In this document: positions 22,034 through 57,100 of the stretch, in pieces
Position numbering within the stretch: position 1 is the stretch's first letter
How the letters are laid out: each line of letters opens with the position of its first letter
Assembly (NCBI GenBank): GCA_032622095.1
Contig: CP136065.1
Location: 216,546,151 to 216,610,150 of the forward strand
Source of the DNA: Siphonodentalium dalli
Lineage: Eukaryota; Mollusca; Scaphopoda; Gadilida; Siphonodentaliidae
Direction of reading: 5' to 3'
Length of the DNA stretch: 64,000 nucleotides
Made by a program: the position numbers and the translations under genes
Notes under the pieces: generated by a model
Database searches by the model: none
Told to the model about the DNA's origin: nothing
The model's input: the letters and a program-made list of their open reading frames with translations, nothing else

Positions 22034-22490
22034 TTAACCCTTTACCCAACAGAACGGCCCTGTGCCAATGCATTCTCTTATATATGCGAGTCGACCATAG
22101 GTCGTCTCGCATATATACATGTAAGAGAATGCATTGGCTTAACACATATTAAAAATTGTCAAAGAATGTAGAAAAATATTATAAAAATTGTTAAAAAATG
22201 TAAGAAAAAATTATAAAATTGTTAAAGAATGTAAGAAAAAATGGTAAAAAGTGTTAAATTAAAGATTTTTTTAGGCCAATGCATTCTCTTATATATTCGA
22301 GGCGACCTATGGTCGACTCGCATATATAAGAGAATGCATTGGCACAGGGCATAACTGTAACCATCACAGTGTGGTCAATGAACCGGTTCCAATGATATCC
22401 ATATTTTGTTATTGAGACAGACCGAAGATATTTTAGGCTGTTGAAGCTTTATTTGGGCGTTTTTGGCCGCTTTGTTGGGTAAAGGGTTAA
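22034..22490 (-). mobile_element. TTAA-flanked MITE, type A copy 2 (inverted)
   Basis: TTAA copies at 22034-22037 and 22487-22490. The ends CCCTTTACCCAACA and TGTTGGGTAAAGGG are perfect inverted repeats. It carries two full palindromes (22060-22140, with a 5-bp insertion tacat; and 22270-22346) around a spacer made of repeated AAAGAATGTAAGAAAAA. The unique arm lies on the right, so it is inverted relative to copies 1 and 3. Confidence 0.85.
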
Positions 22491-24610: not shown

Positions 24611-25255
24611 GCCACTGCAGACGCTGCGGTTAAAATCGTAAGTGGGGAAAATCGCAGGGGGAGCATCCACTGCGCATGCCCACGACAATGTCGCAGCCAT
24701 ATCGTAGCGATCAAGCACTGTTTTATTTTATCAGGAAAATCGTGTCGTGACCTTGGCAACTCGCGCGATCGTAGCTGTCACATGACCATGGTCGCGCACT
24801 GGACATGTGATAAATACCACGAAAAGAAAAAATTCAAAAATGGCGTAAAGTTCACAAACATCTTCAAAAAACGAGGCCACATTGGTGGAGATGTGGCAAG
24901 GCAGGGAGTGCCTTCACAACATATCAGCCAGCTGATATACAGACAGGGAGATGAGGGCTGCCGCAATTGTTGAAATATGCGGCAGGTGTGGAGTTGACAG
25001 GTACAAAAATGTCAAAATAAAAAATTATTCAATTTCACTTGAACTTTCAAGTTCAACTTGTTAGTTCAGAAAATTGAGATACATGCCATGCATATGTATA
25101 TAATTGCATAATGCGGATACTTTAATATAACATTTTGCTATCATGTGATCGATCGCGTGGATAAAATCGCAGCTGCAGACATCGCAGCACCGTAGCACTT
25201 TTCGCCACCTGCGATTTTCCCCACTTACGATTTTAATCGCAGCGCCTGCGGTGGC
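24611..25255. repeat. 645-bp foldback with about 49-bp arms
   Basis: The left arm 24611-24659 (GCCACTGCAGACGCTGCGG, then aaaatcgtaagtggggaaaa) is the inverse of 25207-25255. The subterminal regions also share gatcg and catcgcag motifs. A plus-strand frame of 134 codons (24569-24973) crosses the left arm and resembles nothing I know. Confidence 0.6.
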
Positions 25256-26182: not shown

Positions 26183-27095
26183 TCTTCAATTTGATGTATC
26201 CCCTGTAAAAATTGGTTAATAAAAACTCCGGTTATGAGCACAGGTCTGACGCAAACCGGCTGTAAAATTTCACTCGTTCGAGATGGTGTCCGCTAAACTG
26301 GTTCAAAGAGTGCGATTTTTACACCGACTTGCGCTTCAAAAACACAATAAACGGTGAGTAGAATATATATATTATACATCATTAGAAACGGAAATTTTTA
26401 CTGACCCACAAAAACCAATTACGCTACATAACGGCATCGTATCTCTCGTATTTATTGAATAATTCAGTTTCATAAACCCGGAAGCAAAATGAAATTGTCC
26501 AAAACCAGCCATTTTGGGGATATTTTGTGCGAGTTTGCTATGAGTACTATTTATAGTTCTTATGCAACACAATATATAGTTATAAAAATTCAATAAATAC
26601 ACAGACTGAATTAACACGAATTGAAAACATACATATGGACAAGAGTATAACTTCATAAATATTTAGAGCGTATATACACTACTTCTTCGTTATATATTTG
26701 ATTTATATCTGGCCCCATGACAAATTAGTGTTACGTCATTTCTGCTTGCTTACAATATTTGACAAAATGGCTGGCTTTGGAAAATTTCAATTTGCTTCCG
26801 GGTTTATGAAACTGATTTTTTCAATAAATACGAGAGATACGATGCCGTGGTATGGCATGATTGGTTTTGGTGGGTCTGTAAGCAATTCCGCTTCTAATGA
26901 TGTATAATATATATATTCTACTTCCGTTGAGCGTGTTTTTGAAGCGAAAGTCGGTGTAAAAACCGGACTATTTGACCCAATTTAACGGACACCATCTCGA
27001 ACGAGTGAAATTTAACAGCCGGTTTGCGTCAGACCTGTGCTCATAACCGGAGTTTTTCTTAACCAATTTTTACAGGGGATACATCAAATTGAAGA
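26183..27095. repeat. 913-bp foldback with 334-bp arms
   Basis: 26183-26516 and 26763-27095 are inverse copies differing by scattered substitutions and small gaps, around a 246-bp loop. Ends are TCTTCAATTTGATGTATCCC. The same short peptide frame (containing FASGFMKL) is read from both arms on opposite strands. The right arm abuts the 35-bp satellite with no gap. Confidence 0.8.
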
Positions 27096-28278
27096 TTAAG
27101 TAGCTTGTGCTATCTAATTGTGAACCCCGATTAAGTATCTTGTGCTATCTAATCGTGAACCCCGATTAAGTATCTTGCGCTATCTAATCATGAACCCCGA
27201 TTAAGTATCTTGCACTATCAAATCATGAACCCCGATTAAGTATCTTGCGCTATCTAATCATGAACCCCGATTAAGCATCTTGCGCTATCTAATCATGAAC
27301 CCCGATTAAGTATCTTGCGCTATCTAATTGTGAACCCCGATTAAGTATCTTGCGCTATCTAATTGTGAACCCCGATTAAGTATCTTGCGCTATCTAATCG
27401 TGAACCCCGATTAAGTATCTTGTGCTATCTAATTGTGAACCCCGATTAAGTATCTTGTGCTATCTAATCGTGAACCCCGATTAAGTATCTTGCGCTATCT
27501 AATCATGAACCCCGATTAAGTATCTTGCACTATCAAATCATGAACCCCGATTAAGTATCTTGCGCTATCTAATCATGAACCCCGATTAAGCATCTTGCGC
27601 TATCTAATCATGAACCCCGATTAAGTATCTTGCGCTATCTAATTGTGAACCCCGATTAAGTATCTTGCGCTATCTAATTGTGAACCCCGATTAAGTATCT
27701 TGCGCTATCTAATCGTGAACCCCGATTAAGTATCTTGTGCTATCTAATTGTGAACCCCGATTAAGTATCTTATGCTATCTAATCGTGAACCCCGATTAAG
27801 TATCTTGCGCTATCTAACCATGCACCCCGATTAAGTAGCCTGCATGCACTATCTAATATTGAACCCAGATTAAGTATCTTGCACCATCTAATCATGAACC
27901 CCGATTAAGTATCTTACGCTATCTAATCGTGAATCACGATTAAGTATCTTGTGCTATATAATTGTGAACACCCATTAAGTATATTTGGCTATCTAATTGT
28001 GAACCCCGATTAAGTATCTTGCGCTGTCTAATTGTGAACCCCGATTAAGTATCTTGCGCTATCTAATCGTGAACCCCGATTAAGTATCTTGCGCTATCTA
28101 ATTGTGAACCCCGATTAAGTATCTTGCGTTATCTAATTGTGAACCACAATTAAGTATATTTCGCTATCTAATCGTGAACTCAGATTAAGTATCTATCGAT
28201 ATCTACTCATGAACCCCGATTAAGTATCTAATCGTGAACCCCGATTAAGTATCTTGCGATATCTAATCGTGAACCCGG
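27094..28278 (+). repeat. 35-bp satellite with 315-bp higher-order unit
   Basis: About 34 tandem monomers of GATTAAGTATCTTGCGCTAT plus ctaatcgtgaacccc. Variants at the g/a and tcg/tca/ttg positions recur every nine monomers: the block starting near 27104 is repeated almost exactly from about 27419. Monomers after 27830 are more diverged. Each monomer contains the inverse pair GATTA and TAATC. There are no spacers, so it is not a CRISPR. Confidence 0.9.
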
Positions 28279-29199
28279 ATTGGCTGATTGTGTGTTTCTG
28301 TCATCTCATGTTTCGCTGAATTTCTTTTTTTCTGAATATTTTAACCTAGTATGGAGCACGACTGTCGCACAGGGGATGCACATATATGCAGTGGCTAAAC
28401 AGGTCATCGCTTCAGATAAATACAAGTATTTGGCCGGAACACAAGTCCGAGGCGGCTGCTGGTTAGTTGCTAAATATTTGCTTTTCATATGGCAAATATA
28501 TTGACATAGTAAAGATGACTCGCTAAGTTCCAATGATGCTGAGGTATTTCCCCGGCACTTGGTTGTTAGCTTCGAACCGACTGTTAAAATACATTCTGTA
28601 TTTGTCATTGGTAAGACGTTTCAAAGTCTTCCTGGACATTATAAACATGTCAAGCCAATCAGGACTGGGCCAGTGAATAGCTCTCTCATATAACTGAATG
28701 CTCAAAGAAAATTTATTATGGCGCCCTCTGCAGTTTACAGCTATTGCAAAAACAACTATGCCGTTTACTCATCACAAGACATTAACTATTATTGTAGAAT
28801 TGCGTTGCGAACCCGCGATATAGCTGATTCTTCTGAAGTATTGGATTGTCTGAGTTGGCACTGCAGGGAGTCACGTTTCTAAGATACTTGATGGACAAAA
28901 TGTGCATCTGAACAGTTATTTTTTGACCTTCTATCGATGCGAACATACGCCTACATTGAAGGTTGAATATATGAAGATCGATTTATCTACGATATCCAAT
29001 TCGATTACGGTCTTTTAAATGTCAGGGATATGGTTATTGTTAAGGAAATTGTAAAAGTAATCACATAAATGTTAGATATTAGATATGTTTTTTATATTTC
29101 TAAATTAGACGTATGCGTCTATTTTCTATGCTCCACGTATATGATATATTCAGAATACAGTTTTACTGGACATACGATAATTTATTTCAGGACGGCGGC
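28279..29199. other. No recognised feature
   Basis: Overlapping short frames occur on both strands (28280-28705). None is recognisable. Confidence 0.3.
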
Positions 29200-31063: not shown

Positions 31064-31513
31064 TTAAAGATGCATAATCCGAATTAACGCTCCCAAATTA
31101 CTATTTCTTTGGCTTCGGGGGTAAACAATATTTGATTCGAGTCGAGGAAGCCACCCATCAAATCTCAGAGTGATCAGATATCGAATTTTTAAATTTGTTA
31201 TTTCCCGAGATAGGTAATTTTTGGCGGCCTGTCAAATATACAAGCCGACAGTCTCGGACCAAATTGCGTATGAAGATGGATAACTCTAAAGTCAAGTGAC
31301 TTTGGTCTTATATTATTTGGCAATCCGACCAAATTTCGTTTAACAAAATGTTAATAAATAACACGTTTTGGGCAATTTTATACTATAGTTGACTGTGGTT
31401 AGCATTATTTTGGGGCAATTAATCGATTCTGATAACTGAAGCGGCATTTCAAAATAATTTGTTGTTGTAATCTAATGATTTGGGGACCATTGAATCGGAT
31501 TGAGTACCTTTAA
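31064..31513 (+). mobile_element. AGGTACTC-family TTAA element, diverged copy
   Basis: TTAA copies at 31064-31067 and 31510-31513. The left end is decayed (AGATGCATAATCCG), and the right end CGGATTGAGTACCT is well kept. The segment with GGCTTCGGGGGTAAACAATA and TTGATTCGAGTCGAGGAAG matches the two near-identical copies at 41.85 and 50.93 kb. Confidence 0.65.
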
Positions 31514-31617: not shown

Positions 31618-32073
31618 TTAACCCTTTACCCAACAAAACGGCCAAAAAACGCCCAAATAAAGCTTCAACAGCCTAAAATATCTTCGGTCTGTCTCAATAA
31701 CACCATACAAATATGGATATCATTGGAACCGGTTCATTGACCACATTGTGATGGTTACAGTTATGCCCTGTGCCAATGCATTCTCTTATATATGCGAGTC
31801 GACCATAGGTCGCCTCGCATATATAAGAGAATGCATTGGCCTATCATTTTTTAACACTTTTTACCATTTTTTCTTACATTCTTTAACAATTTTGTAATTT
31901 TTCTTACATTTTTTAACAATTTTTATAATATTTTTCTACATTCTTTGACAATTTTATCATTTTTAATATGTTAAGCCAATGCATTCTCTTATATATGCGA
32001 GGCGACCTATGGTCGACTCGCATATATAAGAGAATGCATTGGCACAGGGCCGTTCTGTTGGGTAAAGGGTTAA
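31618..32073 (+). mobile_element. TTAA-flanked MITE, type A copy 3
   Basis: The best-preserved copy. TTAA at 31618-31621 and 32070-32073; perfect terminal inverse CCCTTTACCCAACA. The left unique arm (31622-31766) is followed by the core at 31767-32049: palindrome, AT-rich spacer with repeated TTCTTACATTCTTTAACAAT, palindrome. Each palindrome has 30-bp arms of the type CCAATGCATTCTCTTATATA around GCGAGTCGACC/ATAGGTCGCCTCGC. Confidence 0.88.
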
Positions 32074-37026: not shown

Positions 37027-40000
37027 TAAGCACCGGTGTGACTAATTACCGCCCGGGGACCGCCCGGGACCGCCCGGGGACCGCCCGGGACCGCCCGGGC
37101 GGCCCAACGAGCCCGTGGACACAATATCTCGACGGTATAACGTAGCGACATGCCACCTGAGGGCAACATAGAAAAATTTACTCGCTCGCTCGTCTCCGGC
37201 CGGTCATATTAACCCCACAAATGCCGATATTGGCTAAAAGAGCCTGGGTGATTACTGGTGTCTTCGTGTGTGTTCAGACAGATTATTTTGGTGATACTCG
37301 GTAGTGCAATAAGTGCAATACACCTGAGTGTTAATTCCATGTATTGACTCGTTGACGCGTCCACGGCCGATGTTATTAACCCCTCAAATTCCGGTAAAAT
37401 AGTGTATAAACAAAAGAACCTTGAAACCGCCCGGGACCGCCCGGGCGGCCCCATGGGCCCGTGGACACTATATCTCGACGTTATAACATAGCGACATACC
37501 CCACGAGGTCAACATACAAAATGTTACTCCCTCGCTCGACCCCGGCCGGCGTTATAAACCCCTCAAAATCCGATAAAATGGTAAATAGACAAAAAGAACA
37601 TTAGGACCGCCCGGGACCGCCCGGGTGGCCCCACGTGCCCGTGGACACAATATCTCGACGTTATAACGTAGCGACATACCCCACGAGGACAACCTATAAA
37701 ATGTTACTCGCTCGCTCGACTCCGGCCGGTGTTATTAACCCCTCAAAATCCGATAAAATGGTATATAAACAAAAAGAACATTGGGACCGCCCGGGACCGC
37801 CCGGGAGGCCCCATGGGCCCGTGGACACTATATCTCGACATTATAACGTAGCGACATACCCCACGAGGTCAACCTAGAAAATCTTACTCGCTCACTCGAC
37901 TCCGGTCGGTATTATTAACCCCTAAAAATCCAATATTGGATAAGAGGGCACGGACAGCTCGGTGTCTTCTTTTGATTTCAAACAGCATATTTTGATGATG
38001 CATGGTAGTGCAATACCACCTGATAGTGACTTCCAGATATTGACTCGCTGACGCGTCAACACAAAATACCGTATCACCATAAATATTCGGCTCTACATGA
38101 TCGTAAATATCGCAATTTTCTTGAATGTTTTCAATAAAAATTAATAACTTTACACCTATAATTTTTATATTTTGACACGAGCGGGTGTAATTGTGTTGAT
38201 TTCGACAGCAACTGCTTGTCTGAAGAGAGCCGCGGCAGCTGTTTGAATGTGTTGATATCAATTAGCAGTAAAACGGTATCGCAATTGTTATATTGTATAC
38301 ATTAACCACTTCACAATAATCAGAAGACATATTGGCGGATTTAAACCGAAACTGTGTTTTCATAACACTTGGGGAAGACGAACAGGTAATCTCGTGACAA
38401 CAGCGGAGATTTGCGATGAGGTTTCCGTGTTTTTATTGCAATCGAAAATGGTCGTAATCCCAAAATCTTCTTGGTGCTAGACAATAACGATCAAGATGAC
38501 GAAGTGAGTATTTGTGATATTGGAAACCCGTGTACTTAATTTGCTTACCGACCAATCACACGATATTACGTTATGGGGTAGATTATATATAATCGTGTGT
38601 GAATTAAAAATAAAATATAATTTTAAATATCTTAAAATCATGCGACCACGTATTCGATTCATGCTTCCATCCATGGTGCTGTATCCGTGTTCCGTCTGCT
38701 CTACTGAAGCTGAGGGTGAGTCAATATATTTTATATGACCATATTACATATTATATATTTTCTTTATTTGCTCCACATATGGAGAGTATGATGACCTCCA
38801 TCACCGGGAATAATGTTTTCAGTCCTTGCCCAAAAGGTCGTGGGTTGGGTTGCAATATGGGGAGGTACTTTGACCATGCAGGAAAATCATATTATACATG
38901 TCCAGTTGACATCAGATGTCTTAAAAGGGCACTAATTATTAATAAAATAAAAACATTAATTATATAACCAAAATTGTTGAAATCTAATCGGTGAAAATTG
39001 AAACATGTGGGTAAAATTGGCCCATGGCGTGTCAAGAGAAAAGGGCACTAAGTATTGGTCCCAATGTTCTTTTTGTTTATATACCATTTTATCGGATGTT
39101 GAGGGGTTAATAACACCGGCCGGAGTCGAGCGAGCGAGTACCATTTTGTAGGTTGACCTCGTGGGGTATGTCGCTACGGGCGGTCCCAATGTTCTTTTTG
39201 TTTATATACCATTTTGTCGGATTTTGAGGGGTTAATATCACCGGCCGGAGTCGAGCGAGCGAGTACCATTTTGTAGGTTGACCTCGTGGGGTATGTCGCT
39301 ACGGGCGGTCCCAATGTTCTTTTTGTTTATATACCATTTTGTCGGATTTTGAGGGGTTAATATCACCGGCCGGAGTTGAATAACGTCGAGATATTGTGTC
39401 CACGGGCACGTGGGGCCACCCGGGCGGTCCCGGGCGGTCCTAATGTTATTTTTGTCTATTTACCATTTTATCGGATTTTGAGGGGTTAATAACGCCGGCC
39501 GGGGTGGAGCGAGGGAGTAACATTTTGTAGGTTGACCTAGTGGGGTATGTCGCTATGTTATAACGTCGAGATATAGTGTCCACGGCCCCATGGTGCCTCC
39601 CGGGCGGTTTCGGGCGGTCCCAATGTTCTTTTTGTTTATATACCATTTTATCGGATTTTGAGGGGTTAATAACACCGGCCGGAGTCGAGCGAGCGAGTAA
39701 CATTTTGTAGGTTGACCTCGTGTGGTATGTCGCTACGTTACAACGTCGAGATATTGTGTCCACGAGCACGTGGGGCCACCCGGGCGGTCCCGGGCGGTCC
39801 CAATGTCCTTTTTGTCTATATACCATTTTGTCGGATTTTGAGGGGTTAATAACGCCGGCCGGGGTCGAGCGAGGGAGTAACATTTTGTAGGTTGACCTCG
39901 TGGGGTATGTTGCTATGTTATAACGTCGAGATATAGTGTCCACGGGCCCATGGGGCCGCCCGGGCGGTCCCGGGCGGTTCCAAGGTTCTTTTGTTTATAC

Positions 40001-41086
40001 ACTATTTTACCGGAATTTGAGGGGTTAATAACATCGGCCGTGGACGCGTCAACGAGTCAATACATGGAATTAACACTCAGGTGTATTGCACTTATTGCAC
40101 TACCGAGAATCACCAAAATAATCTGTCTGAACACACACGAAGACACCAGTAATCACCCAGGCTATTTTAGCCAATATCGGCATTTGTGGGGTTAATATGA
40201 CCGGCCGGAGACGAGCGAGCGAGTAAATTGTTCTATGTTGCCCTCAGGTGGCATGTCGCTACGTTATACCGTCGAGATATTGTGTCCACGGGCTCGTTGG
40301 GCCGCCCGGGCGGTCCCATTGTACTTTTTGTTTATATACCATTTTATCTGATTTTGAGGGGTTAATAACACCGGCCGGAGTCGAGCGAGCGAGTAACATT
40401 TTGTAGGTTGACCTCGTGGGGTATGTCGCTACGTTATAACGTCGAGATATTGTGTCCACGGGCACGTGGGGCCACCCGGGCGGTCCCGGGCGGTCCCAAT
40501 GTTCTTTTTGTCTATATACCATTTTGTCGGATTTTGAGGGGTTAATAACGCCGGCCGGGGTCGAGCGAGGGAGTAACATTTTGTAGGTTGACCTCGTGGG
40601 GTATGTCGCTATGTTATAACGTCGAGATATAGTGTCCACGGGCCCATGGGGCCGCCCGGGCGGTCCCGGGCGGTTCCAAGGTTCTTTTGTTTATACACTA
40701 TTTTACCGGAATTTGAGGGGTTAATAACATCGGCCGTGGACGCGTCAACGAGTCAATACATGGAATTAACACTCAGGTGTATTGCACTTATTGCACTACC
40801 GAGAATCACCAAAATAATCTGTCTGAACACACACGAAGACACCAGTAATCACCCAGGCTATTTTAGCCAATATCGGCATTTGTGGGGTTAATATGACCGG
40901 CCGGAGACGAGCGAGCGAGTAAATTTTTCTATGTTGCCCTCAGGTGGCATGTCGCTACGTTATACCGTCGAGATATTGTGTCCACGGGCTCGTTGGGCCG
41001 CCCGGGCGGTCCCGGGCGGTCCCGGGCGGTCCCCGGGCGGTCCCGGGCGGTCCCCGGGCGGTAATTAGTCACACCCCATAAGCACC
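37027..41086. mobile_element. 4-kb Mutator-like foldback with internal tandem repeats
   Basis: TAAGCACC copies at 37027-37034 and 41079-41086 flank ends GGTGTGACTAATTACCGCCC (left) and its inverse (right, to 41075). A GC-rich ccgcccggga block follows. The arms (37035 to about 37960, and about 38990 to 41075) are built of 177-bp-class units in opposite directions, each containing ggacacaatatctcgacgtt, gaccccggccgg and ttaacccctcaaaatcc, plus two longer 370-bp units with tgactcgttgacgcgtcc. Right-arm units at 39946-40300 and 40642-40990 are near-identical. Long, unrelated-looking sequence at about 38070-38985 fills the middle. Frames of 80-165 codons in the arms are repeat artefacts. Confidence 0.8.
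38640..38967 (+). CDS. Possible two-exon cysteine-rich frame inside the foldback
   Basis: A plus-strand frame starting at ATG 38640 reads to a candidate donor at GAG|GGTGAGT (about 38713-38720). After a pyrimidine-rich stretch, a second frame at about 38780-38967 holds CPKGRGLGCNMGRYFDHAGK then SYYTCPVDIRC. The C-x7-C-x15-C-x5-C spacing and the GR-F...YY-C pattern look zinc-binding, vaguely like GRF fingers. It could be a gene fragment captured by the element or a remnant of its own gene. The splice model is inference and the protein is short. Confidence 0.3.
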
Positions 41087-41188: not shown

Positions 41189-41848
41189 GGTAGCATTTTA
41201 AAGACTATAGCCCTGCCGATAGTTTGCTTGCCACGATTCTCGCTTCGAACCAACCATGATATCAGCAGCCGGGTAATAGTTATACTATTGCCCGCGCATT
41301 AGTTAATTCACTTTCCACTATTCTCGCTCGCGTTAACCGAAGACTATGTATGCATATCTTGCCACAAGTCAGAATGTTTGTATCATATTTATACAGTTTT
41401 AAGTTATTTTACAAACTTAAAGATATATTATGGACTTGTTCGGGTGCGTGAACCTGATAAATTAGTACTCAGACGCTATGCCAACTGGGAGGAAGTATAT
41501 AGCATTCTACTGACATCGCCCAAAATCTCAAAGAAATCGACCATACAACTCCATTAAAAACACATCTGAACTACGCTCAATTGTAAATATTTACATCTCG
41601 ATTCTGGACGCAACAATCGCCGATAAACTAACGCAAATGATTTCCCCATCGATACTCATTGCATTTAATAAATATATAAGACCAACGGTGTGTTTTGTAA
41701 ATTTGGGTTAACATTCATAAAAATAACTACTTTGAACAAGATTATTCTCCATTTCTATTTGATCACCCAACCGGAGTGTTTCGCATCACTTTAATGTATA
41801 TAAACAGTATATTAACCCTGTATATACTAAATGGATTTTCCCAGTCAG

Positions 41849-42325
41849 TTAAAGGTACTCAACCCGATAAAACTCCTCTCAATTACTATTTCAATGGCTT
41901 CGGGGGTCAAAAATATTTGATTCGAGTCGAGGAAGTCACCCATCAAAGCTCAGATTTGTTAGATATCGATTTTAGAAATCTATTATTTTTCATTATCGGG
42001 AATACTATCTGGCCCAGAACTCAGTCAAAATTGCATTAAAATTACCACTTGATTTTAGAGTTATTCATCCTTGTCTGTTTGAATAGATTTGGAGTACACA
42101 TCCAGAGCAGATTACGGCAGTTATCAGTACTCATCTCGAGAACATAACAAATTTGAAAAATCAATATCTAATAACTCTGAGCTTTGTTTGATGGGTTCCT
42201 CGACTCGAATCAAATATTTTTTACCCCCAAAGCCAAAGAAATAGTAATATAGGACCCTCTGATCGGATTGTTGTTGTTGGAATCTGTTGAGATGGGGACC
42301 CTCTTTACGGGTTGAGTACCTTTAA
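41849..42325 (+). mobile_element. AGGTACTC-family TTAA element, copy 1
   Basis: TTAA at 41849-41852 and 42322-42325; ends AGGTACTCAACCCG and its inverse. Arms of about 110 bp are inverted copies (ggcttcgggggt, ttgattcgagtcgagg). Almost identical to 50926-51402 (only a C/T-type change noticed), so both moved recently. The 87-codon frame reading through it is repeated in copy 2 and is not a gene. Confidence 0.85.
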
Positions 42326-42459
42326 AAAGTGTACATCGGAATAGACTATTATAGATTTGCAGGGATGTTAAGGTGATAAAAGCAGACGACAGATAAATAA
42401 ACAGCCCTATTTTTTAGGGTAATGTTTAGATAATAAGTTCAACAAACGACTGTCGTTAT

Positions 42460-44967
42460 TGAACTTAATATCTGAACATTTCCTATGGAATAACAACTCA
42501 TCAATGATGCTTTAGTATATACAGGGTTAAACTTATTATCTGAACATCTCCTATGGGATATCTACTCACCAATGATGCTTTAGTATATACAGGGTTAAAC
42601 TTATTATCTGAACATTTCCTATGGAATAACAACTCATCAATGATGCTTTAGTATATACAGGGTTAAACTTATTATCTGAACATTTCCTATGGAATAACTA
42701 CTAATCAATGATGCTTTAGTATATACAGGGTTAAACTTATTATCTGAACATTTCCTATGGGATATCTACTCACCAATGATGCTTTAGTATATACAGGGTT
42801 GAACTTAATATCTGAACATGTCCTATGGGATAACTACTCACCAATGATGCTTTAGTATATACAGGGTTGAACTTAATATCTGAACATGTCCTATGGGATA
42901 ACTACTCACCAATGATGCTTTAGTATATACAGGGTTGAACTTAATATCTGAACATGTCCTATGGGATATCTACTCACCAATGATGCTAGTATATACAGGG
43001 CTAAACTTATTATCTGAACATTTCCTATGGAATAACTACTCATCAATGATGCTTTAGTATATACAGGGTTAAACTTATTATCTGAACATATCCTATGGAA
43101 TAACTACCCATCAATGATGCTTTAGTATATAGGGTTAAACTATTATCTGAACATATCCTATGGAATAACTACCCATCAATGATGCTTTAGTATATACAGG
43201 GTTAAACTTATTATCTGAACATTTTCTATGGAATAACTACTAATCAATGATGCTTTAGTATAAGCAGGGTTAAATTTATTATCTGAACATTTCCTATGGA
43301 ATAACTACTAATCTATGATGCTTTAGTATTAACAGGGTTAAACTTATTATCTGAACATTTCCTATGGAATAACTACTCATCAATGATGCTTTAGTATATA
43401 CAGGGTTAAACTTATTATCTGAACATTTCCTATGGAATAACTACTAATCATTGATGCTTTAGTATATACAGGGTTAAATTTATTATCTGAACATTTCCTA
43501 TGGAATAACTACTAATCAATGATGCTTTAGTATTAACAGGGTTAAACTTATTATTTGAACATTTCCTATGGAATAACTACTCATCAATGATGATTTAGTA
43601 TATACAGGGTTAAACTTAATATCTGAACATTTCCTATGGAATAACAACTCATCAATGATGCTTTAGTATATACAGGGTTAAACTTATTATCTGAACATGT
43701 CCTACGGGATAAATACTCATCAATGATGCTTTAGTATATACAGGGTTAAACTTATTATCTGAACATTTTCTATGGAATAACTACTAATCAATGATGCTTT
43801 AGTATATACAGGGTTAAACTTATTATCTGAACATTTTCTATGGAATAACTACTAATCAATGATGCTTTAGTATATACAGGGTTAAATTTATTATCTGAAC
43901 ATTTCCTATGGAATAACTACTAATCAATGATGCTTTAGTATATACAGGGTTAAACTTAATATCTGAACATGTCCTATGGGATAACTACTCACCAATGATG
44001 CTTTAGTATATACAGGGTTAAACTTATTATCTGAACATTTCCTATGGAATAACTACTCATCAATGATGCTTTAGTATATACAGGGTTAAACTTATTATCT
44101 GAACATTTCCTATGGAATAACAACTCATCAATGATGCTTTAGTATATACAGGGTAGAACTTAATATCTGAACATTTCCTATGGGTTAACTTCTCATCAAT
44201 GATACTTTAGTATATACAGGGTTAAACTTATTATCTGAACATTTCCTATGGAATAACTACTAATCAATGATGCTTTAGTATATACAGGGTTAAACTTATT
44301 ATCTGAACATATCCTATGGAATAACTACTAATCAATGATGCTTTAGTATATACAGGGTTAAACTTATTATCTGAACATTTCCTATGGAATAACTACTCAT
44401 CAATGATGCTTTAGTATATACAGGGTTAAACTTATTATCTGAACATATCCTATGGAATAACTACTAATCAATGATGCTTTAGTATATAGGGTTAAACTTA
44501 TTATCTGAACATATCCTATGGAATAACTACCCATCAATGATGCTTTAGTATATACAGGGTTAAACTTATTATCTGAACATTTTCTATGGAATAACTACTA
44601 ATCAATGATGCTTTAGTATATGCAGGGTTAAATTTATTATCTGAACATTTCCTATGGAATAACTACTAATCAATGATGCTTTAGTATTAACAGGGTTAAA
44701 CTTATTATCTGAACATTTCCTATGGAATAACTACTAATCAATGATGCTTTAGTATATACAGGGTTAAATGTATTATCTGAACATTTCCTATGGAATAACT
44801 ACTAATCAATGATGCTTTAGTATTAACAGGGTTAAACTTATTATCTGAACATGTCCTACGGGATAAATACTCATCAATGATGCTTTAGTATATACAGGGT
44901 TAAACTTATTATCTGAACATTTCCTATGGAATAACTACTAATCAATGATGTTTTAGTATATAAAGGG
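42460..44967 (+). repeat. 68-bp minisatellite, about 37 copies
   Basis: The monomer begins TTAAACTTATTATCTGAACA, continues tttcctatggaataactact and catcaatgatg, and closes CTTTAGTATATACAGGG before the next TTAA. Variants (gaacttaatatc, cctatgggat, ctaatcaatg) are spread in local runs, as expected from unequal exchange. Some monomers lose 2-4 bp near atacaggg. Confidence 0.92.
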
Positions 44968-45170
44968 TTAACACAATCGATACATAGATGGATCTATTGC
45001 ATAATAAATACTCCGAACTTCGTATTGGTGTCATGTAAATCATTTCCAATAAGCAGTCACGAACCACATTGCATACATCAGACAGGCAGTCGACGTTAAT
45101 TGCCTTCCCGTATCCAGAGAGATTAGTATTAATTAGGGTCGGGGCCTACGAACAATCGTATCACAAATAT

Positions 45171-45363: not shown

Positions 45364-46311
45364 TTAAAGGCCCACTTAATTTTCGAGTCGCCGATTATTT
45401 CTTTTATAGTGACTTGATATACGGTTTTAATAACAAAATCTATGCCATAAAATATGATTAAAATACTATAATTCATCACTATTTGAAACATCTGTGTCTC
45501 AGAAGATGCCCACAGAGAAATAGAAAACTGCTGAAATCATTGAATGACTTCCCCCCTTTGGATCCAAGAATGCAACTGAATTCAAACTTGTTCAATGGAA
45601 GGGGAAGAACTCTATCTTTAATATATAGTTATTCCCACTGCATTGAAAATAATACTGCTTTTTACTGCAATCGAGATGACAAAAACGGTTGGCAACTCAA
45701 CAAAAACAACATGTCCTCAGTTAATTACACCGGATAAGTTGATAATACAATATTTTGAACCTTCCTCTTTCAAATGGTATATATTATGGCATACATTTAT
45801 ATAATGTGATCTGGTGGTTCATGGTATATATTAGGGCATAAATTTATATAATGTGATCTGGTGGTTCATGGTATATATTAGGGCATACATTTATATAATG
45901 TGATCTGGTGGTTCATGGTATATATTATGGCATAAATTTATATAATGTGATCTGGGGGTTCATGGTATATATTAGGGCATAAATTTATATAATGTGATCT
46001 GGGGGTTCAAGGTATATATTATGGCATAAATTTATATAATGTGATCTGGGGGTTCATGGTATATATTAGGGCATAAATTTATATAATGTGATCTGGGGGT
46101 TCATGGTATATATTATGGCATTAATTTATATAATGTGATCTGGTGGTTCATGGTATATATTATGGCATAAATTTATATAATGTGATCTGGGGGTTCTTGG
46201 TATATATTATGGCATTAATTTATATAATGTGATCTGGGGGTTCATGGTATATATTATGGCATTAATTTATATAATGTGATCTGGTGGTTCGAAAATTAAG
46301 TGGGCCTTTAA
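45364..46311. mobile_element. TTAA element carrying the 47-bp array
   Basis: TTAA at 45364-45367 and 46308-46311. The ends AGGCCCACTTAATTTTCGA (45368-45386) and its inverse (46289-46307) are identical over 19 bp. A frame at 45483-45737 has no ATG start and ends near the array; I do not recognise it. The right end joins the last 47-bp monomer directly. Confidence 0.8.
45772..46288 (+). repeat. 47-bp minisatellite, about 11 copies
   Basis: Monomer CATGGTATATATTAGGGCAT, then aaatttatataatgtgatctggtggtt. Variation is mostly at two sites (tta(t/g)gg; gg(t/g)ggtt). Entirely inside the TTAA element. Confidence 0.92.
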
Positions 46312-50925: not shown

Positions 50926-51402
50926 TTAAAGGTACTCAACCCGATAAAACTCCTCTCAATTACTATTTCAATGGCTTCGGGGGTCAAAAATATTTGATTC
51001 GAGTCGAGGAAGTCACCCATCAAAGCTCAGATTTGTTAGATATCGATTTTAGAAATCTATTATTTTTCATTATCGGGAATACTATCTGGCCCAGAACTCA
51101 GTCAAAATTGCATTAAAATTACCACTTGATTTTAGAGTTATTCATCCTTGTCTGTTTGAATAGATTTGGAGTACACATCCAGAGCAGATTACGGCAGTTA
51201 TTAGTACTCATCTCGAGAACATAACAAATTTGAAAAATCAATATCTAATAACTCTGAGCTTTGTTTGATGGGTTCCTCGACTCGAATCAAATATTTTTTA
51301 CCCCCAAAGCCAAAGAAATAGTAATATAGGACCCTCTGATCGGATTGTTGTTGTTGGAATCTGTTGAGATGGGGACCCTCTTTACGGGTTGAGTACCTTT
51401 AA
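50926..51402 (+). mobile_element. AGGTACTC-family TTAA element, copy 2
   Basis: TTAA at 50926-50929 and 51399-51402. Same length and orientation as 41849-42325, and essentially identical to it. Confidence 0.85.
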
Positions 51403-51969: not shown

Positions 51970-52137
51970 TTACAGTTCCTCGATCAGTCGTCGAGGTTGA
52001 TGTCTTGTACGACCGCTCCGTCGAGGGACATCTCCCGTGGGTGGAGTCAGTGGGCCCGTTGAACTGATACTGATGTTAGCCGGTGATTGATTTGGGTGGC
52101 TTATCGCCATGCGTTTGCGGAGGAAACGACGGTTTCA
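51970..52137 (-). pseudogene. C-terminal tail of the Gypsy pol frame beyond the second stop
   Basis: After the TGA at 52135-52137 the same frame stays open for 54 codons to a TAA at 51970-51972. It is basic and proline/serine-rich, like the tails of Gypsy integrases. So the TGA looks like a late nonsense change rather than the original end. Confidence 0.6.
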
Positions 52138-53931
52138 TCGCCATACACGCCCTGAAGCAAGCTTCACCAGATAATCGCGATTGGTCCCGATTTCAATCAC
52201 TGTCCCGTATATGTCCCACCGCTTGGTCTTATGACACTGAACTGCAACTTTACTTCCAACAGTTAATTCAGGTAAACACCTCGACTTCCTGTTATAGTGT
52301 TGCTCAAGTTTATCTCGAATTTGCGACGCGTTCTCGTCAGCGGTTTTGATTGACATTTGCCATTCTGGCGCAAAAGCGCGTTTATGGACAGGGAGCGTAT
52401 CTCGAGCAGGGTGTCCGAAAACTATCTGCGCAGGTGATCGTCCGTCGTTGCGTGGCGTATTTCTCCAGTGTAATAGTCCTTTTTGCCAATGGTCCATATC
52501 AACTGATTTTTCACCTGGTCGAAACGCCGACTGAAGAAGATGTTTCATTGCTTTGACACTTGCCTCCGCGTGAGAATTGGACTGCGGATATCGCGGTGAC
52601 GAAGTAATGTGCCGAACACCCCAGTCTTTTAGAAATGTCTGGAAAACACGAGATGCATACTGCGGTCCATTATCACTATAAAGAATTGTCGGAATTGCCG
52701 TATCAGTGAATGTCTTTTTGCAAGACTCGATCAGTTTAACTGAAGTTGCTTCTTTGCCCAAGTTAAAAATAGACGGCCAGCCAGACTTGACATCTGTTAT
52801 TATCAGATACTGACATCCATTTGAGGTAAACAAATCTGAACACATGTGTTCAAACACTCGGCTAGGAACCGGATGTTGTTTTATTGGCTTCTGGCACTGG
52901 GAAGGAATGCGTTCACTGCAAATCCTACAGGATCGTACAGTCCTATCTATATCTGCATCAATTCCTGGCCAATAAACAGTCAAGCGAGCCCTGCGCTTCG
53001 AACGTTCAATCCCTTGGTGGCTTGCATGCAGTTTAGTCAGAATGTTTTTCCTCATTTCTTTTGGAATTACTAATCGGCAACCACACACGATATAGCCATT
53101 GTCAACTGTAAGTCGATCGCGTACGGCCCAGTATTGACGTAGAGCAAGTGATAAGTCTTTCTTGTCTGGAAATCCTTTCTCGACAACTGAATACAGTTCC
53201 TGATATTCGTCATCGTCACTTGAAACGTTTTTTACAGCTTCAAGATGGAGGTCCTCCTCGACAATATCATCTGATATAGGCTGGATCATAATGGATCTCA
53301 AACTGTACTCAACCTCTTGCTCTAAAATCTGGTCCTCGTTATCAGGGTCCTTTATTGGGTTGCGGCTGAGAGCATCTGCAGCAGACAATTTAGTTCCAGG
53401 AATCCACGTCGTGTGGAATTGATATCGCATCAGCTTCATTCGCATAGTTTGTAGTCGAGGATTGTCAATGTCACTCAAACAATAACTATTTAATATTGGC
53501 ACAAGTGGTCGATGATCCGTAACGAGTTCGAATTTTGACAGTCCTTCCAGGAAAATTCGACATTTTTGAACTGCCCACACGGATGCTAACATCTCCAGTT
53601 CAATCATGGCATACCGAGTTTCCGCTGCGGATAGAAATCTTGAGCCTGCTTGAACGACATGCCACGTTTTATTTGACGGTTCCTGTTGGAAAAAGACGAA
53701 TCCTAAACCATTCAAGCGACTGGCATCGACATGTAATGCAGTAAGTCTTTGAGGCTCATAATACGAGAGAACAGGCACGGTACACAGGACATCTCTGGCT
53801 TTTCTGAACGCCGTTTCGTGAACCGAATCCCATATAAATTCGTTGCTCGACTTGAGAAGTGGTCGTAAAGGGTCTAGATATTTGGCAATCTGATTAGTAA
53901 AGCCAGCCAACTGGTTCGCCAGCCCAAAAAA
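52135..53931 (-). CDS. pol: Gypsy-type pol, RNase H and integrase part
   Basis: Same frame as the gag-RT part, beginning after its internal TAA. From the first start-like codon (TTG 53910) there are 591 residues. RNase H: HVDAS (Asp62), ELEML (Glu104), TDHRPL (Asp132). Integrase: H-x3-H (295, 298) and CRIC (328, 331) zinc finger, then the catalytic triad Asp359 (CSDLF), Asp413 (YSDNGPQY) and Glu449. A C-terminal region with VAVQCHKTKRWDIYGTVIEI resembles the integrase tail that binds DNA. All key residues are present. In life it would copy the element RNA and insert the DNA product in the nucleus. It ends at TGA 52135-52137, earlier than its apparent original end. Confidence 0.88.
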   Translation of the reverse strand, partial: FFGLANQLAGFTNQIAKYLDPLRPLLKSSNEFIWDSVHETAFRKARDVLCTVPVLSYYEPQRLTALHVDASRLNGLGFVFFQQEPSNKTWHVVQAGSRFLSAAETRYAMIELEMLASVWAVQKCRIFLEGLSKFELVTDHRPLVPILNSYCLSDIDNPRLQTMRMKLMRYQFHTTWIPGTKLSAADALSRNPIKDPDNEDQILEQEVEYSLRSIMIQPISDDIVEEDLHLEAVKNVSSDDDEYQELYSVVEKGFPDKKDLSLALRQYWAVRDRLTVDNGYIVCGCRLVIPKEMRKNILTKLHASHQGIERSKRRARLTVYWPGIDADIDRTVRSCRICSERIPSQCQKPIKQHPVPSRVFEHMCSDLFTSNGCQYLIITDVKSGWPSIFNLGKEATSVKLIESCKKTFTDTAIPTILYSDNGPQYASRVFQTFLKDWGVRHITSSPRYPQSNSHAEASVKAMKHLLQSAFRPGEKSVDMDHWQKGLLHWRNTPRNDGRSPAQIVFGHPARDTLPVHKRAFAPEWQMSIKTADENASQIRDKLEQHYNRKSRCLPELTVGSKVAVQCHKTKRWDIYGTVIEIGTNRDYLVKLASGRVWR

Positions 53932-56247
53932 TTATCTGAGATCAGTTATGTTCTTTGGAACTGGGAAGTCACTGATAGCTTCCGTAATATCAGAACTGAT
54001 TGTATATCCTTTGTCGTTTATTCTGTAACCGCAGAACGTAACTTCGGATTCACCGACAACGAATTTATCAGGATTCAACGAAATGCCCTTCTGCGAACAA
54101 CGGGTTAGAATCTGACGTACATGTGTCACGTGCGATTCGAGTGAGTCATCATATGCCACAAAATCATCAACAATTTTCCGATGTCTCGGTATTCCAGTGA
54201 GAGCTTCGTCCATCCGCCTATTGTAGTGTTCGGATATAGAACAAATTCCAAATGGAGCCCGTAAAAACATGAACCGTCCAAAAGGGGTGATAAATGTTGT
54301 CAGACGTTGACTGTCGGGAGACAGAGGGCACTGCCAGTAGCCACTGAGACAATCAAACGATGCGAAGAAACGAGCGTTTGTAGCTGCCATGTCCGCAACA
54401 GCTTCCTGTGGAGACGGGGATTGGTATCGCTCCCGTTGAACAAACTGGTTCAATTTGGTGAAGTCGACACATAGGCGAATATCGTCCGAATTTTTTTTCG
54501 GGGCCACTACAATTGGGGCACACCATTCGGTAGGATCTGTTACTGGAACTATGATTCCATTTTCGAGCATACTATTCAGTTTATCTTGAAGTTTATCTCG
54601 ATATGCATAAGGAATGGTGCGTGGTGCTTTTATACAGAAAGGAATGTGATTGTCCTGGAGTTCGATTTTAAATTGTTCATCGGGCATAGCGCGGATCTCA
54701 CGATCGAACACAATGGGAAATTCCGCCATGAACTGCTCTCGAAGAGTTACAGAGTCGCTTATTTCGCTGGTCGCATGCATACGGTCTGTGGTTATCGCGT
54801 TTGTCTCCGTAATCGCGTTTGTCACATGCGTATGGCCTGTTGATGCTCCGATGTTAACATGGTTCCGATCATTAACAAAAGTGTTCCCTTGTACACTGGT
54901 TATACTAGTAGAAGTCGTCGCTTCACAATAACCATCAGGTAAAGCAGTAGTCGCATGCATATGGTCGCTCGCGAGTAAACTGTCGTTTTCCGCACGATAC
55001 ATCATAGGTTTCAACATTTTACCTCCTCTCTGTGCTGGATAGTCCTCTGGAATGATGCCAAGGTCTCGTGACGTTATCCATGACATGTATAACCCTGTTG
55101 TGCCTTGCAACACGTGAATGGTATCTTTAACACGATAAGATCCACACACAATTTCAGCATCAAATTCTCCCAGTTGCTCAATTTCTCGGTTATCTGCGGC
55201 ACGCAAAGAAGCAGTAGTTGGTCGCAGATTCAGCGGATCAATCTCGAGTTGGCAAAATACATCCAACCCATAGGCTGATCCCTCAGCCCCAGTATCTGGA
55301 ACTGCTTGAATTATCTTGCCATTCGCTATTTTGCCTCCAACCAGAACATCAATCGTAGGTGCTTTTCTGTGCGATATTGGAGCTAACAGGGGCCCGAAAT
55401 GTATGACAGAAACATGTTTTTGCGATGAGACTGTTCCTTTTCCTTGGCACAATTTTGATTTAGCCCAATGTCCCTTGCACAAGCAAACTGCGCAATGTGA
55501 ATTAAACGCTGGACAACGAGCGTTCGGAGCGTGTTGTTTCGTACATTTTTCACAAATCGTCGTCTTAGGTGTACCTTTATAGTCTCGCGAAAATTGCTGT
55601 TTTTTATTGCGTTCCCGTTTATATTGTGATATTGCACAAATGTCATTGGAATCGCCAGTAATCTCTTTGCGGTGTCGTTTCGCAGCTTCCTCTGCGCGAC
55701 ATATAGCAATCGCACGCGTAAGGTCGACATCCTTCTCAACAAGTAACCGTTCTATCGTATCGGAATCTTGTATGCCCGTAACGATTCGATCTCGGATCAA
55801 CGACTCTTCACATGCGTCGCAAAATGAACACGTTTTTGCAAGTTCCCTCAGGTCGGTAACATAGTCATCGAAATGTTCATCTTCACTTTGGGTTCGTAAA
55901 TTGAAATTTCTGCGTTCTATAACGATATTCAATTGTCCATGCACATGAAGATGAAGGGCCTTAATGATCTCAGTTGGGACGTTCTTCTTATCATCTGGCA
56001 GATTCAAGTTTAAAACAACTTTCAACGTTTCATTTGAAAGGCATGACCTGAATAAAGCCATTTGAATTTCACCTGGCTGCTTGTCGAGGTTGGACAATTT
56101 ACTATAATCGTTCCACCTTTGTTTCCAGAGAGTGAAACTTTCACCGCGGTCGATCGTGATGTCCAATTTTTGCGGCATTAGTGGAGACGTTGCATAATTG
56201 AAAGCAACTGCAGCGGGTGGTTGCTGGTCTGGTTCCTGTGCCATCAT
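53932..56247 (-). CDS. gag-pol: Gypsy-type gag-protease-reverse transcriptase part
   Basis: 771 residues from ATG 56247 to a TAA at 53932-53934. The capsid-like N-terminus (residues 25-195) has LWKQRWNDY. Two zinc knuckles follow: C232-C235-H239-C245 and C252-C255-H260-C267. Aspartic protease has DTGA at 318-321. RT has the fingers motif RLCVDFTKLN (591-600), SFDCLSGYWQ with Asp632, and the active site as IVDD at 692-695 instead of YIDD; V-D-D forms are common in this group of Gypsy elements. Gag and pol are fused in one frame. The TAA falls in a region that is normally continuous between RT and RNase H, so this copy has a single nonsense lesion here. The frame continues open right after it. 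Confidence 0.9.
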   Translation of the reverse strand: MMAQEPDQQPPAAVAFNYATSPLMPQKLDITIDRGESFTLWKQRWNDYSKLSNLDKQPGEIQMALFRSCLSNETLKVVLNLNLPDDKKNVPTEIIKALHLHVHGQLNIVIERRNFNLRTQSEDEHFDDYVTDLRELAKTCSFCDACEESLIRDRIVTGIQDSDTIERLLVEKDVDLTRAIAICRAEEAAKRHRKEITGDSNDICAISQYKRERNKKQQFSRDYKGTPKTTICEKCTKQHAPNARCPAFNSHCAVCLCKGHWAKSKLCQGKGTVSSQKHVSVIHFGPLLAPISHRKAPTIDVLVGGKIANGKIIQAVPDTGAEGSAYGLDVFCQLEIDPLNLRPTTASLRAADNREIEQLGEFDAEIVCGSYRVKDTIHVLQGTTGLYMSWITSRDLGIIPEDYPAQRGGKMLKPMMYRAENDSLLASDHMHATTALPDGYCEATTSTSITSVQGNTFVNDRNHVNIGASTGHTHVTNAITETNAITTDRMHATSEISDSVTLREQFMAEFPIVFDREIRAMPDEQFKIELQDNHIPFCIKAPRTIPYAYRDKLQDKLNSMLENGIIVPVTDPTEWCAPIVVAPKKNSDDIRLCVDFTKLNQFVQRERYQSPSPQEAVADMAATNARFFASFDCLSGYWQCPLSPDSQRLTTFITPFGRFMFLRAPFGICSISEHYNRRMDEALTGIPRHRKIVDDFVAYDDSLESHVTHVRQILTRCSQKGISLNPDKFVVGESEVTFCGYRINDKGYTISSDITEAISDFPVPKNITDLR

Positions 56248-57100
56248 AGACAGAGCACGTGGTCAATTAGAATTGTTAGAACTTTGCCTATAATGATTTC
56301 TAGCTGCGATGGACCAAAGTTCTAATTGTATTCATTTGGGGTAAACGTACCGAAGTGACAGCGATGTGTTTAAAATAATGAGATGTTTAATTGTATGAAG
56401 ATATATAAGATGGTAACAATATCACCGTCAATGTCTTTTGGTGTCTCCATGATGGAACTGTCATGTTATAAATACGTCCGCATCCGACGGTGATCGATAG
56501 CCGAGTTCTAATTGTTATTGTTCTCCTGGTCAGCCGACCGCGTCACAGTTCACACACATTGCGTGCTGAGTAGAACTCCATGAGCAGTCCGCTTTGTCCA
56601 CTCTAGTCACAACACTGGGTCACGAATTACGGCATACTGACACACTGTAGCTGTTCTGTTTACATTGACGCAGTTGGTCTCTGTTCGTACAGACATGAAA
56701 GTTAACATAAGCCAAGTTCTCCAAAACCGACATTCACCACACTCCTCCCCATTCCACTTTGAAGGACCGAGCATGTATATTGGAGAGACCAACTTCAATC
56801 TGCACATCTACAATGAAAACAGTGAGAAAACTAGAACAGATACAGTGTATTACATCCCAATGATGTTCCATACATTGTCAGAAATGTACATGCCCAGTAG
56901 AGTGAACTCAATCAATAATTAGTATATTTCCCAGTACCGATTCAATTAATATCGGTGACCTGTTACAATTATATCGACAGAATTCATTTTCTGGGACTTC
57001 TGTTATCCCTATACATTGTTTGTCTCATTCACAATATAAAATTAAGATTTGAGCTTCACCTTATGTCTAGTGGTCATTGGGAGTGTTGGGGTTATACAAC
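56248..57100. other. Non-coding interval between the two retroelement regions
   Basis: Should contain the 5' leader and LTR of the Gypsy element on the minus strand (a TATTTATAA-like box is near 56470), but no repeat of 51718-51878 is visible. Nothing else is recognised. Confidence 0.3.

Follow-up and report, generated by a model that had tools for sequence, protein, structure and literature searches.

A putative TTAA-bounded element whose right end recurs in most units of a one-sided 68-bp minisatellite

The window, i.e. the whole 64-kb stretch of DNA that was analysed, contains a putative TTAA-bounded element of 3160 bp, in which a left arm and a short loop are followed by a tandem array of 37 units of 68 bp (Table 1). 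Without the nested insertion in its left arm the element measures 2687 bp, and with a single unit 246 bp; its longest stop-to-stop frame is 75 aa. The array spans 42459–44967 and was called by TRF at 42462–44971 (period 68, 37.0 copies, 93% matches), which together with the motif counts confirmed the coordinates of the left end and the array in the original prediction. TTAA was found on both sides of the element, the right one also being the usual start of a repeat unit. As nearly every unit precedes TTAA anyway, the TTAA at 44968–44971 does little to support a target-site duplication. A BLAST search revealed one copy of the element family in the 64-kb window and, with the right TTAA lying within a unit, both its mobility and its right boundary are putative.

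Table 1. Parts of the TTAA-bounded element and of its 68-bp array, in window coordinates.
Feature	Coordinates	Strand	Remarks
Left end: TTAA target site and 16-bp terminal inverted repeat CCCTGTATATACTAAA	41812..41831	+	
Left-arm sequence adjoining the tip	41832..41848	+	Unlike the inverted monomer
Nested separate TTAA element, Kolobok-like, with a long internal palindrome and ends AGGTACTCAACCCG	41849..42325	.	Inserted into the left arm
Remaining left-arm spacer	42326..42417	+	No further copy in the window by BLAST
Inverted monomer head	42418..42445	-	Inner edge of the left arm
Loop, 10 nt	42446..42455	.	Separates both stems
First monomer	42459..42526	+	Starts TTGAAC; probably the original right arm
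36 further monomers, 66–68 bp	42527..44967	+	Each with the right tip or a variant at its end; GGG followed by TTAA at 31/36 internal junctions
Outermost right end (tip with 1 mismatch) and TTAA	44952..44971	-	Flank from 44972

The terminal sequence TTAACCCTGTATATACTAAA (41812–41831) reappears in inverted form within the array, where the terminus of a unit reads TTTAGTATATACAGGG or a near variant of it. With up to two mismatches allowed, the tip CCCTGTATATACTAAA has 36 sites in the 64-kb window, one on the plus strand (41816) and 35 on the minus strand in the array; in 100 shuffled sequences there were 0.04 on average and never more than 1, and a chance match of the left end was therefore rejected. 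The 16-bp tip is exact in 27 of the 37 units and the 20-mer including TTAA in 23, and TTAA directly follows the tip in 32 (31 of the 36 internal junctions and the outer boundary). The structural reading originally proposed, a TTAA element with its tip repeated in a single direction (35 minus-strand sites in the array), is thus upheld for most units, but the claim that every monomer carries the end and TTAA went too far. The outermost unit forms the actual right terminus, TTTAGTATATAAAGGG, with one mismatch to the left tip, and has private changes, one of them within the tip.

The left arm resembles an inverted unit at both edges only, with a spacer of 113 bp between them (the nested element discounted) compared to 27 bp in the monomer. 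At the outer edge, the left end matches the inverted monomer over 16–20 bases (21 with one unit), after which the sequences read TGGATT and GCATCA, respectively. At the inner edge, 42418–42442 agrees with the inverted monomer head in 22 of 25 bases, a score reached by none of 100 shuffles (maximum 19) in a test that was run after the inverted repeat had already been noticed. The full 28-nt inverted repeat (86% identity) pairs 42418–42445 with the head of the first monomer at 42456–42483, and the inverted head was matched to the first unit by BLAST with an E-value of 1.1e-6. The left end being just an isolated inverted monomer, named beforehand as an outcome that would speak against the element, does not hold in its simple form, as the identity ends past the tip; the inner edge of the left arm nonetheless corresponds to an inverted monomer head.

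The tip agrees with published hallmarks of piggyBac elements, i.e. terminal inverted repeats of 12–19 bp, a CC[C/T]T tip and a TTAA target (PMC2872659): CCCTGTATATACTAAA is 16 bp long, identical to the 27 exact unit tips and shares 15/16 bases with the outermost one. The nested element is of another type. In the same window, a second copy of this 477-bp sequence at 50926–51402 is identical in 476/477 positions and has unrelated flanks, indicating an independent and probably recently active family, and a diverged relative lies at about 31091–31513. Kolobok elements are described by a TTAA target and RR terminal bases, with AGGRR as a stricter motif for T2 (PMC6004289). Both ends of both copies read TTAA directly followed by AGGTACTCAACCCG, in agreement with the TTAA target and the RR terminal bases; they deviate from AGGRR in reading AGGTA, and the element is hence termed Kolobok-like rather than filed as T2.

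Variants among the units hold traces of the growth of the array. At unit position 3, 31/37 units have A, 5/37 have G and 1/37 has T. The G is also present in the inverted head; besides unit 1, it occurs in four others (three with TTGAA, and unit 26 with TAGAA). As G occurs in both the first unit and the inverted head, TTGAA is probably the older state. Units 10, 11, 12, 13, 15, 16 and 19 align in order with units 30–36 on shared rare variants; this alignment scored 50.6 in a home-made scheme allowing gaps, whereas permutations of the unit order (n = 300) gave a mean of 21.5 and a maximum of 40.9, with none as high. The ordered alignment points to block duplication, as may arise by unequal exchange. 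It is visible only when gaps are allowed: a stricter search of the array found no runs of at least four units differing by at most one variant at one offset, suggesting later divergence or loss of units within the blocks. Mean unit identity is 0.929 at distance 1 and 0.94 at distances 17 and 20, and neighbouring units are thus not clearly more alike than distant ones, which argues against pure one-unit slippage. The private changes of the outermost unit are as expected for the edge of an array under unequal exchange.

On the observed layout, inverted arm remnants, nested insertion and block duplication we place a history of which the microhomology origin, the piggyBac mobilisation and the order of events are what we infer. 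The locus is probably a piggyBac-type TTAA MITE whose right arm has been amplified to a minisatellite by recombination. Its ancestor would have been a non-autonomous, TTAA-inserting piggyBac-type MITE with the form of an imperfect palindrome of about 246 bp, comprising a left arm, a short hairpin loop and a right arm, the last of which would have been duplicated in tandem from hairpin base to tip. The first duplication probably proceeded via a short match between the right-boundary TTAA and TTGAA at the arm base; joining by such microhomology would explain the presence of TTAA at nearly every junction, and the TTAAA at the unit start could result from fusing the boundary TTAA to the arm-base TTGAA. 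Growth to 37 units would have come later, in multi-unit blocks through unequal exchange or gene conversion, and the left arm has additionally taken up a Kolobok-like MITE. The repetition of the tips is most likely a by-product of recombination and not a device; given a matching transposase, competition between the internal ends and the outer one would be expected.

It appears unlikely that a transposase instead built or keeps the array, with breaks at the TTAA tips being repaired from the sister copy so as to add units, or with extra sites being selected for raising or restraining transposition. The 23 units with exact tip and TTAA would be compatible with such a role, as would the properties of T. 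ni piggyBac, described as having its first 16 bp gripped symmetrically by a dimer, requiring asymmetric ends in cells (35-bp left, minimal right 63-bp) and being stimulated by added binding sites (PMC7351741), and those of piggyBat, the activity of which is restrained by an inner binding site (PMC11707139). The 20-bp end columns are, however, not clearly more conserved, with 1.55 non-consensus units per column vs 1.75 in the rest of the unit (a mean of 1.375 for the tip columns alone), and values at least as low were obtained in 30/68 circular shifts, including the unshifted one. With this lack of a conservation signal, selection on the ends was rejected, and amplification driven by a transposase is left without support. 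Growth in multi-unit blocks also speaks against it, and no transposase was found in ten open frames scanned. An 11-bp palindrome beside the tip, identified by eye, is suggestive in lying about where the inner binding site of piggyBac would be expected (bp 17–33; PMC7351741), but substitutions disrupt its outer pairs in many units (C41A in 16/37, T43C in 6/37). The original explanation of the amplification by a transposase cutting at many sites is thus not borne out, as the ends are not extra-conserved and block duplication accounts for the growth without a transposase; cut-and-paste at an internal end would be expected to shorten the array, not lengthen it. The array might also titrate transposase, a proposal likewise without support in the sequence. 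The repeated ends could matter either way, and nothing in the sequence indicates that they do. A rather doubtful extension is that one left end faces a ladder of right ends, any of which a transposase could pair with it to yield elements of variable length, leftover end-bearing satellite and self-limitation. If true, variable-length transposons and free arrays would both originate from one locus, and competition of the internal ends with the outer end would limit the element's own movement.

Two further readings concern the nature of the unit. That the array is an independent 68-bp satellite, with the 20 left bases as a stray fragment and no element at all, has a low probability in our view: the right TTAA belongs to the repeat, the window holds no second copy of the element and no short exact pieces of the unit were found in viral contigs, yet the left match is bounded both by TTAA and by the end of the 16-bp tip, a second inverted stretch occupies the other edge of the left arm, and a TTAA element with a minisatellite of its own neighbours the locus. 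A unit that is itself a complete, degenerate two-ended mini-MITE, repeated head-to-tail as in coral CMITE arrays, is very improbable. Most units are bounded by TTAA and tandem arrays are known for coral piggyBac MITEs (PMC2872659), but the unit start is unlike an inverted tip, with 761/1000 shuffles equalling the score of the start against the inverted end, and this candidate was discarded as unsupported.

Sequence searches covered several collections. The ten frames scanned against Pfam (six of the 12 frames with 150 aa or more and four of the 21 further listed frames) gave matches to reverse transcriptase, RNase H, integrase and a sub-threshold symporter, and none to a transposase. The retroelement domains include those of a retrotransposon pol region (52135–56262, minus strand; reverse transcriptase, RNase H, integrase) that spans two adjoining open frames and whose domain order suggests a Gypsy type. 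Together, the retrotransposon and the symporter fragment would point to an animal host. Three exact patterns had no matches in viral contigs, the segment 42326–42730 (405 bases) had none in plasmids, and Rfam returned nothing at the gathering score. Among genome contigs the only exact 16-mer match was in a Paludibacter MAG, as a single copy with no inverse in 8000 bases, and it was treated as chance.

In the window, inverted ends bounded by TTAA (14 bases, at most one mismatch, within 5 kb) numbered 54 pairs compared to 0 in a mirror control, of which 25 belong to this locus, 22 derive from an inverted-arm element at 37–41 kb and 7 are others (22034–22490, 31618–32073, 24630–25236, 26216–27062, the two copies of the nested family, and 45364–46311). 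The TTAA-bounded element at 45364–46311 has AGGCCCACTTAATT ends, and an 11-copy 47-bp minisatellite abuts its right end. Its tip occurs once on the right side and is absent from the 47-bp units (BLAST, E up to 0.05), while a 20-bp piece of the unit lies inverted in the left arm (45436–45455, 90%, E 0.015); the element is a possible parallel to the main locus. Common to both ends of the TTAA element at 24630–25236 is TTAAAATCGTAAGTGGGGAAAATCGCAGG, a degenerate direct repeat of the tip (16 bp) that possibly represents a two-copy case of end duplication. The sequences at 22034–22490 and 31618–32073 belong to one TTAACCCTTTACCCAACA family in opposite orientation (434/470 aligned positions identical), each containing long internal palindromes and a short tandem repeat of 32 bp. 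The inverted repeat of 26216–27062 extends past the TTAA, and this is hence probably not a TTAA element; a 35-bp minisatellite of about 34 copies (27094–28281) begins 32 bp past the inverted repeat ending near 27062. The large inverted-arm (foldback-like) element at 37035–41075 has 180-bp and CCCGGGCGGT repeats in both arms, with many of its 180-bp units containing TTAACCCCTCAAAATCCG and likewise TTAACCCC, and its ends are GGTGTGACTAATTACCGCC; TAAGCACC may be duplicated, at an offset of three bases from the right end. As its own ends differ, it was not counted as a second case despite the TTAACCCC in its units.

The locus appears to preserve the conversion of an arm to satellite with its parts in place, i.e. 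the inverted arm remnant, the probable original arm, 36 copies and the target site within the unit. It thereby offers a test of whether a cut-and-paste transposase is aided, hampered or unaffected by repeated ends. The question stems from opposite results reported for piggyBac (PMC7351741) and piggyBat (PMC11707139). If ordinary, the locus is a further case of MITEs seeding minisatellites, and other TTAA elements in the window also bear tandem repeats.

The original statement that no described system has this layout was too strong, since minisatellites in TTAA MITEs, foldback repeats derived from terminal inverted repeats and arrays of whole piggyBac MITEs are on record. The last of these, the CMITE arrays of Acropora, are alike in TTAA, CCC..GGG tips and tandem transposon ends, and their growth has been put down to replication slippage (PMC2872659). 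They are described as repeating the full-size MITE with both ends (PMC2872659), whereas the 37 units of 68 bp seen here each comprise a single arm and end and do not correspond to a full two-ended MITE. Xmix and Xstir of Xenopus, which we compare via the descriptions in later papers, likewise have a tandem repeat on a TTAA MITE (T2/Kolobok), for which a stem-and-loop origin has been proposed, and differ by Kolobok-type ends (PMC6004289, PMC12628747, PMC9659126); the source region is given as the terminal inverted repeat (PMC9659126) or as internal sequences (PMC12628747). In the foldback element Tetris of Drosophila virilis, a 37-bp stretch is common to the arm repeats (TIR-220) and the outer flanking domain of the TIR, copy number has been proposed to change by unequal exchange and long satellite arrays derive from the repeats, but the repeats are about 220 bp and possible in both TIRs, and the common stretch is not described as including the extreme tip and the target site (PMC4079207). 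The repeats of the Galileo F subfamily in Drosophila mojavensis vary independently between the two TIRs of one copy and may carry secondary transposase sites; they are located about 264–467 bp inward of the end rather than at the tip, in a P-element relative (PMC3573991). Repeats in both long inverted arms, as in foldback elements, are not found at the present locus, where the array is on the right only and the left arm contains the two edges of a single inverted unit. No array with a complete end and the target site in each unit was recognised among the matches listed, as judged from titles and abstract starts with few subscription journals. A MITE with a minisatellite is thus of a known kind, of which a unit holding tip and target site, in one arm only, is an unusual variant, and the locus seems to show, in an unusual version, the known origin of satellite DNA from transposons.
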